Assembly: GCA_002710215.1 (NCBI GenBank)
Contig: PAJQ01000057.1
Location: 8,590 to 44,567 of the forward strand
Reading direction: 5' to 3'
Length of the DNA stretch: 35,978 bases
Source: Chloroflexota bacterium
GTDB taxonomy: Bacteria > Chloroflexota > Dehalococcoidia > Lucifugimonadales > UBA3495
Positions 4,798 through 7,249 of the stretch are shown here, piece after piece (within the stretch, counting starts at the first letter, position 1; the number at the start of each line of letters is the position of its first letter). Under the pieces are notes generated by a model. It was not told the DNA's origin. It saw nothing but the letters and a program-made list of their open reading frames with translations, and made no database searches. Made by a program: the position numbers and the translations under genes.

Positions 4798-4826
4798 AAA
4801 CGGCCCCGATGATATCGGGGCCGTTT
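4798..4826. terminator. Bidirectional intrinsic terminator
   Basis: A perfect 13-bp inverted repeat: AAACGGCCCCGAT at 4798-4810, loop GAT, ATCGGGGCCGTTT at 4814-4826. The plus transcript ends in TTT; on the minus strand the hairpin is followed by TTTTCTTTT. It lies between converging genes (the SDR and the Cys/His-module gene) and should stop both. Confidence 0.9.
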
Positions 4827-4898: not shown

Positions 4899-5798
4899 CT
4901 AGAGGGCGACTACCTGCTCCCGGAGGGACTCCAACTCTTGGATGAGCTGGGCCTTGGTCTTCCGGTTGTCGGTCATGCCGTTTGAAGCTTGATTGTTCTG
5001 AGCAACCAACTCCCATGACCTGGCCTCGATCTGGGGCATCTTCTCTTGAATCAGCTTCTCATCAACCTCGGCGGCTATGGACGGGTAGCCTGCCCGTTCG
5101 ATCATGGACCGCAGGTTACCGGCCTTGAACTGGTCCAAGGTCCAGCGAAGAGTCTCCCCGGAGGTGGTGACGTCCCAATAAACCCGGACGTCCTGGTTGC
5201 GGGGTCCGTAGTGATAGTGAGGGCCCTTCTGGAAGCAGTCGAACGCCAGCAACTCCACTTCCTGACCGGCAACATCGGACAGGACGTGAATCGCCATGCC
5301 CTCGTCGTTGATCTGGGGCAGGTGGCGGTATTCCAGGCCGAATTTCAGGTTGCCGACTTCAATCTTGTCGCCCTCGACCAATTCGGGCATGAGGTGATGC
5401 ACGGTTCGCCGTCCGTTCCGGGACAGGTCCCGGCCCTTGGCCTCGGCTTCATCCAACGTCGTTGTTGATGCGGGACTGGCCTCAACAGCAGAGGCTAGCT
5501 CCTCATAACCGGCCCGGCGAATCATCGACGGTAGCCGGTGACGGATGTTGTCCATCGTCCAACCCAAGGGGTTGCCCGCGGTGGTCTTGTCCATATTGAG
5601 GCGGATGTTGTGGTTCTCCGGTCCGTAGTGGTAATGAGGAGTCTGGTCGAAGCAGTCGAACCGCAGAATCTCCGTGTCTTTACCCTCAACCTTGCCATAA
5701 ACCTGAACGCACAACCCCTGGTCCGGCATAAGATCGGTCCTGTATTCCATCGCGAGATCGACAGCGCCTGCGTTGATTACGGATGTTCCTTTCTCCAC
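4899..5798 (-). CDS. Unrecognised protein with two tandem FDCF...PHYHYGP modules and a coiled-coil tail
   Basis: A 299-residue protein with two homologous modules. Module 1 has FDCF at 47-50 and PHYHYGP at 54-60; module 2 has FDCF at 186-189 and PHYHYGP at 193-199. Each is followed by a TTxGxxLxWT stretch and then SMIRRAGY or SMIERAGY. The conserved Cys and two His (C49/H55/H57 and C188/H194/H196) suggest metal or small-ligand binding; this is inference. There is no signal peptide, so cytoplasmic. The C-terminus (MTDNRKTKAQLIQELESL) matches the linker that usually starts PAS-domain sensor kinases, but the gene stops there. GTG 5798 is chosen because AAGGAGGA lies 5 nt upstream; the frame is open about 67 codons further. 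I do not recognise the family with certainty. Confidence 0.8.
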   Translation of the reverse strand: MEKGTSVINAGAVDLAMEYRTDLMPDQGLCVQVYGKVEGKDTEILRFDCFDQTPHYHYGPENHNIRLNMDKTTAGNPLGWTMDNIRHRLPSMIRRAGYEELASAVEASPASTTTLDEAEAKGRDLSRNGRRTVHHLMPELVEGDKIEVGNLKFGLEYRHLPQINDEGMAIHVLSDVAGQEVELLAFDCFQKGPHYHYGPRNQDVRVYWDVTTSGETLRWTLDQFKAGNLRSMIERAGYPSIAAEVDEKLIQEKMPQIEARSWELVAQNNQASNGMTDNRKTKAQLIQELESLREQVVAL

Positions 5799-5949
5799 GA
5801 TTGTCCTCCTTATCCTTTTGTGAGTGCCCCAACCGTTACGAGAGGCTTCCCTTCCGGGAGCTGTACGCGCTGGTCTTGGGTACCCGATTCCACTGCCGGA
5901 TGTTGTACGGTGGGACGGCTGGCTAAACCCTTCCAACCATGCCATACAG

Positions 5950-5967: not shown

Positions 5968-5995
5968 ATTATAGCATGATAATCAACTCTGGCAA
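5968..5995 (-). promoter_or_regulatory. Sigma70-type promoter of the Cys/His-module gene
   Basis: Read on the minus strand: -35 TTGCCA (5995-5990), a 16-nt spacer, and -10 TATAAT (5973-5968) preceded by TGC, an extended -10. It would give a leader of about 160 nt before the GTG at 5798. The interval 5799-6161 holds no convincing gene, only this promoter, the palindrome at 5950-5964 and the repeats at 6037-6094. Confidence 0.7.
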
Positions 5996-6161: not shown

Positions 6162-7249
6162 ATGCCGGTCGATTGGCAACGAAAGGGCCAGGTTTTTTTG
6201 GCGATATTTATCGCCGGGTCACTGATGGCCGGTTGCGGCCCATCGGAAGTTGCCGGGCCGCCTACTCATTCAGGGCCAGAGCCGACCCTGGCAGCACCCC
6301 AACCAAAGGTCGATTTACCGCCGGCCAGAGATCTAACCGCCACTGCCAACCCAACCGCAACACTAACCCCAACTTTCACACCGGCGCCCGCTCCTACCTA
6401 CACGCCCTTGCCAACCTACACCCTATACCCAACCTACACGCCTTTTCCCACTCCTACGCCGTTTCAGGCCCCGGCCCAACCAGCCCCTCCCGTGGTAATC
6501 ACCCCCACGCCATCGGCTGTAGCCACCTGGACACCGCGTCCCAGCCCGACAACCGCGCCAATTCTTATCGCCACGGATAGCCCGGAATTTCCGGCCACTT
6601 TAATTACGCCAACTCGTCCGCCCACCGCGACGCCACAAGCAACATCGGTTCCAACGCCCACGCCGGTGGTAACCCTCGCGCCCCCACCCACGGCTGTTCC
6701 CGTGGTTCTCCCAACATCAACCCCAGAGCCTCCAACTCCGGCGGCCACCCAGACACCATCTCCGACATTCGTTCCAACCGCCACGCCTGTCCCCACTCCA
6801 ACCCCGTCCCCCACCCCCACATCAACCCCAACTCCCAGCCCCACGGCCGTCCCCACTGCGACCCCTCCTCCAACGCCAACACCTACAAGTCCACCGCCAC
6901 CAGCAGGCAGCGTAGTGATCGAGTGCATCTTTTTCGACGGCCTGGTTCCCCGAAGCGAAGCCGACGAATATGTTAGATCGCCAACCTGAGCGCCGACACC
7001 GTGTCTCTGGAGGGCTGGCGGCTCCAAGACGTGTCCGACGGCTCACCTACATTCACGTTCCCCACTTATTCCATCGTGCCCGGGGAAAGGGTCCGGGTTT
7101 ACACCAATCAAGTGCACCCGGAATGGGGTGGGTTCTCTTTCCAGCGGGGTAGCTCTATATGGAACAACTCCGATCCGGATACCGCCCGCTTGTTCGACGG
7201 TCAAGGAGCGCAGGTGTCAACCCGAACCTATCCACCGGGGTGCGAGTAA
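6162..7249 (+). pseudogene. Lipoprotein with Thr/Pro-rich stalk and lamin-tail domain, broken by a -1 frameshift
   Basis: The N-terminus is a lipoprotein signal (hydrophobic run, then LMAGC with Cys25), so the product would be anchored to the outside of the membrane. About 210 residues of Thr/Pro-rich low complexity (TPTPSPTPTSTPTPSP style) form a stalk. From about 6912 a lamin-tail domain begins (IFFDGLVPRSEADEYV), but the frame hits TGA at 6987-6989. The domain resumes one frame over (SLEGWRLQDV, VYTNQVHPEWGGFSF, IWNNSDPDTARLFD) to the stop at 7249. Adding one G between 6974 and 6975 restores EYVEIANLSADTVSLEGW exactly. This is a recent mutation, programmed slippage, or a sequencing or assembly error. 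Such stalked lamin-tail proteins are common in Chloroflexota. Confidence 0.85.

Follow-up and report, generated by a model that had tools for sequence, protein, structure and literature searches.

A tandem DUF7700 protein of Dehalococcoidia with a candidate Asp/His/His site in each domain and a family-specific C-terminal helix

TumE (DUF6516, PF20126) is a toxin shown experimentally to inhibit translation and is predicted to consist of a seven-stranded antiparallel sheet and two helices (PMC10584680). Its motif RYDN...PHHxH can be set beside the RFDCF...PHYHY of the Pfam family DUF7700 (PF24777), and the antiparallel sheet and helices predicted for TumE (PMC10584680) have counterparts in our models of DUF7700. 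The two differ in that DUF7700 genes lack a partner gene and in that the profile match between the families is not significant. Another catalogued family, DUF7718 (PF24839), resembles DUF7700 in having a strand that ends in R-[FY]-D, a His motif and then helices. It differs from the tandem DUF7700 proteins in having no Cys at this place, a single domain and an overlapping DUF5647 partner. No paper naming DUF7700 or DUF5647 was found in the literature searched.

We analysed a 35,978-nucleotide stretch of a Chloroflexota contig, here called the window, which carries on its minus strand a protein-coding gene for 299 amino acids comprising two DUF7700 domains and a C-terminal helix (4902..5798). 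The GTG start (5796-5798, minus) lies downstream of the ribosome-binding site AAGGAGG (5805..5811, minus), the stop codon is TAG (4899-4901, minus) and an orthologue from the same genus encodes a protein 97% identical to that of the window. The open reading frame is a real gene. A sigma-70-type promoter-like site, TTGCCA-16-TATAAT with a TG ahead of the second hexamer, is found upstream (5968..5995, minus; 11 of 12 matches). One such site was found where 0.8 were expected in shuffled sequences, and as evidence for a real promoter it is suggestive only. On the other side, an intrinsic-terminator-like hairpin of 13 pairs with a T-rich tail (4798..4826, minus) separates the gene from a convergent SDR gene. 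We frame the gene as a putative transcription unit of its own, bounded by these two elements. A search for a structured 5' leader gave an RNA fold z-score of 0.48 and no Rfam match at gathering score.

The sequence-only reading had found no characterised family in which to place the fold. Both modules match DUF7700, however, with an E-value of 9e-81 and 267.6 bits in two stretches, far over the curated Pfam cut-off of 25 bits that applies to DUF7700 and likewise to DUF7718. Judged by this match, the window protein is a member of a catalogued, uncharacterised domain family, and all 34 tandem homologues and all 12 single-domain alignment rows match it as well. Domain 1 spans residues 8-106 (5481..5777, minus) and includes R46-F47-D48-C49-F50 and P54-H55-Y56-H57-Y58, while domain 2 spans residues 146-259 (5022..5363, minus) with D187-C188-F189 and P193-H194-Y195-H196-Y197; both align over nearly the whole profile. 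The two modules share 42.6% identity over 101 amino acids (BLASTP E 5e-30), and the duplication is therefore real. DUF7700 also occurs in several other lineages, there in single-domain genes, whereas the window gene combines a tandem arrangement with a C-terminal helix. The window protein had no meaningful match in NCBIfam, PADLOC or PHROGs. The gene is now placed in a catalogued family, and a wrong lead, that of a sensor kinase, is removed.

AlphaFold2 modelled the window protein with a mean pLDDT of 85 and a pTM of 0.54, the latter leaving the packing of its two domains uncertain. For a single-domain relative the corresponding values were 86 and 0.83, with the same order of elements as in the window protein. 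Each domain is predicted to form six antiparallel-looking strands followed by helices, with the Asp close to where strand four ends, the H-x-H on strand five, and the tail is modelled as helical. A sequence search of the PDB returned chance matches only (E 0.6), and Foldseek and VIA-align searches against the PDB together with Foldseek against viral models gave nothing over noise (best E 0.027). The best structural hit had a Z-score of 6.3 with an rmsd of 4.3 Å over 114 residues, which is in the tool's own unremarkable range, and chains of the nucleic-acid-binding PURA and Whirly folds scored at Z 4-5, level with folds such as eL28, p32 and polo box. No solved structure convincingly resembles the predicted model.

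Conservation was counted over 119 distinct, HMM-selected domain rows. Cys49 is retained in 114 of them, the remainder having Ser, Met or Ile (once each) and two gaps, while Asp48 and His55 are each kept in 108, His57 in 109 and Trp80 in 115. The earlier claim of two modules with an invariant Cys and two His thus holds for the duplication and for the positions C49/H55/H57 and C188/H194/H196, but not for strict invariance (114, 108 and 109 of 119). The way in which these residues vary is informative. In nine rows, all domain 1 in one paralogue group, Asp48 and both His are absent jointly while the Cys is retained, the sequence reading N-C-F...S-Y-[VI]-Y. Three other rows with Ser, Met or Ile at the Cys position keep both His. 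Since Asp and the two His are lost together where the Cys stays, and the Cys is replaced elsewhere, the pattern is suggestive, though not proof, of Asp48/His55/His57 as the functional set with the Cys secondary. As this joint loss is confined to a single clade, it may have happened only once. A Cys/His/His metal site is not supported, as the nine rows that have lost both His keep the Cys and the three rows with a replaced Cys keep both His. Of the duplicated metal- or ligand-binding fold proposed earlier, the duplication and a conserved polar, His-containing site stand, with Asp/His/His describing the site better than Cys/His/His. The pattern also offers three residues as targets for mutation.

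The loci with the Asp/His-less domain 1 are L002, L003, L032-L035, L085, L093 and L097, each with a second domain alongside, and the NCF...SY[VI]Y copies are apparently inactive. Paralogues with only one intact site exist, so that a second site is dispensable in some members. Further, a remote DUF7700 subfamily, with one copy in the window's own genome, reads RFDCH or RFDPH followed by GHWH; in the RFDPH form a Pro occupies the Cys position and RFD...GHWH is retained. Members with the pattern RFDxH...GHWH...GGYD were found at L081:5660-6124, L173:401-874, L214 and L215. At the last two loci the remote gene adjoins a convergent gene resembling a Rieske-type ferredoxin (CPHAGA motif, by eye).

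Our preferred explanation, to which we give an even chance, is that of a stand-alone, soluble pseudo-dimer of two fused DUF7700 domains with one D...H-x-H site per domain. In the models D48/H55/H57 and D187/H194/H196 fall on two consecutive strands and would probably form one site in each domain. A metal or a small, polar ligand would probably be bound or acted upon there. The Cys beside the Asp, conserved yet replaceable, is probably structural.

Of the 12 long loci that carry the orthologue of the window gene, six retain all five neighbours: purM, purH, a glycosyltransferase gene and the SDR gene form a block to one side, and an LLM-type gene lies on the opposite side. Most of the remaining long loci retain part of this set, and none of the five is a kinase. 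Around other DUF7700 paralogues and in other lineages the neighbours vary. One member is fused to a CMD/AhpD-type (carboxymuconolactone-decarboxylase-family) domain (L197:428-1369, minus, 313 amino acids), another comes after an MDMPI_N-SCP2 gene, and others adjoin glyoxalase, cysteine-dioxygenase-type and amidohydrolase genes. The fusion and these neighbours would fit a role in the catabolism of organic compounds, in which DUF7700, as an accessory or ligand-binding protein, would bind a substrate or a cofactor of catabolic enzymes. We regard this as possible but doubtful, as the contexts change from locus to locus and the window gene has no operon partner. Moreover, eight DUF7700-carrying genomes hold 12-111 amidohydrolase genes each, so that such neighbours are expected by chance, and catabolic neighbours were accordingly discarded as a clue to function.

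The C-terminal tail KTKAQLIQELESLREQVVAL occupies residues 280-299 (4902..4961, minus), of which 282-298 are modelled as a helix. The sequence-only reading took it for the first segment of a PAS-domain histidine kinase with a stop directly after ELESL; in fact the protein ends in ELESLREQVVAL, and seven residues, REQVVAL, come between ELESL and the stop. From this resemblance it was proposed that the protein is the sensory half of such a kinase, cut after the linker, or a coiled-coil partner of one. The predicted helix at residues 282-298 is compatible with this idea; in our view, however, the likeness to kinase linkers is one that any charged amphipathic helix would have. A profile of 11 aligned tails, all of which share invariant K, L, E, L, R, V, A and L residues, was searched against 13 genomes, and every strong match (E 1e-12 or better) fell at the end of a DUF7700 gene. 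The next match (E 0.002) lay in a 46-codon open frame and all the rest were above E 0.3, while in the window's own genome the window gene was the only match. Being convincingly found only in DUF7700 proteins, the tail is, as far as these profile searches tell, part of this protein family and not a kinase piece.

Nor were the kinase-fused homologues envisaged earlier encountered: none of the homologous open reading frames runs on past the tail into further sequence or a further domain, and PAS, HisKA and HATPase domains were found neither in the window protein (Pfam) nor in its homologous frames. The expected kinase close to homologues was likewise missing from the conserved neighbours, and no histidine-kinase ATPase domain was detected when 690 kb of sequence surrounding DUF7700 genes was scanned with a crude motif. 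Further, 20 of the 34 tandem homologues do without the tail. Because the tail is restricted to DUF7700 genes, no further domain follows it and no HATPase was seen in the 690 kb, the kinase explanation is rejected for the genomes examined, and we consider it highly improbable overall.

Returning to the pseudo-dimer, the tail is present in 14 of the 34 tandem homologues. Four changes in tail presence are needed on a tree from which the last 20 residues were left out, a number that fits a single gain followed by three losses. The helix would have been gained inside the group of window-gene orthologues and lost several times later. Since it appears to have been gained within this group and then repeatedly lost, it is likely modulatory, most simply through self-association, and not part of the core function.

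A possible descent of DUF7700 is suggested by its weak link to DUF7718, which gives a testable idea. According to this idea, DUF7700 would descend from a toxin-like superfamily (DUF7718 and perhaps TumE/DUF6516) as a duplicated, solitary branch and would itself act, with no antitoxin, on RNA or another phosphoester. An R-[FY]-D strand end followed by a His motif is common to DUF7700 and this superfamily, and the Pfam model of DUF7718 is matched by 20 of the 34 tandem DUF7700 proteins (best E 8.7e-4). The window protein matches it over residues 30-86, at 15.4 bits (E 0.017) against the cut-off of 25 bits, and is thus no member of DUF7718. DUF7718 itself matched TumE in hhalign with P 0.004 (0 of 60 shuffles as high). 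With larger alignments, however, the comparison between the DUF7700 and DUF7718 profiles was not significant (P 0.13, 10 of 60 shuffles as high; shuffle counts were used, not the mean, with one outlier at 130.7), and neither was that between DUF7700 and TumE (P 0.075, 10 of 60 shuffles as high). TumE was not among the Pfam matches listed for the window protein up to E 10, and a local TumE HMM gave no hit to any DUF7700 protein at E-values up to 20.

Genetic organisation separates the families as well. At 31 of 33 loci, DUF7718 and DUF5647 form an overlapping, toxin-antitoxin-like gene pair, whereas the window gene has no overlapping downstream DUF5647, its next gene being the convergent one behind the terminator-like hairpin. 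No DUF5647 was found over the cut-off in the window's own genome or in 19 relatives. The lack of a conserved partner gene, the conserved chromosomal position and the CMD-type fusion favour a household role, and we consider toxin-like descent unlikely. The overlap of DUF7718 with a downstream DUF5647 was seen at L099:1498-2081, L144:1495-2096 and 29 further loci, and by analogy the pair looks like an undescribed toxin-antitoxin system. We estimate a broader proposal to be quite unlikely: that DUF7700 belongs to a single superfamily with DUF7718 and TumE, all sharing one Asp/H-x-H active site, that DUF7718 and DUF5647 make up a toxin-antitoxin pair not yet described, and that DUF7700 represents its partner-free, duplicated chromosomal branch, turned to a household role in Dehalococcoidia. 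The superfamily is a lead only.

DUF7700 is present in 42 of 59 related genomes, and most genomes of the window's own GTDB family have five to nine stretches matching it. In a wider sample of the class Dehalococcoidia it occurs in 31 of 393 genomes, and the contig titles of the window-gene orthologues name Dehalococcoidia or Chloroflexi. Relatives were not found in phages or plasmids by tblastn, nor in viral contigs by scanning. Knowing the function of DUF7700 would matter for reading the genomes of a mostly uncultured lineage within the Dehalococcoidia that carries several copies per genome.

A minor observation concerns a neighbouring region of the window (6162-7249, plus), where a Pro/Thr-rich frame without a Pfam match lies behind a lipoprotein-like start and is followed by a second short frame. 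Because both frames cluster with one longer gene of relatives, this gene may be interrupted in the window.
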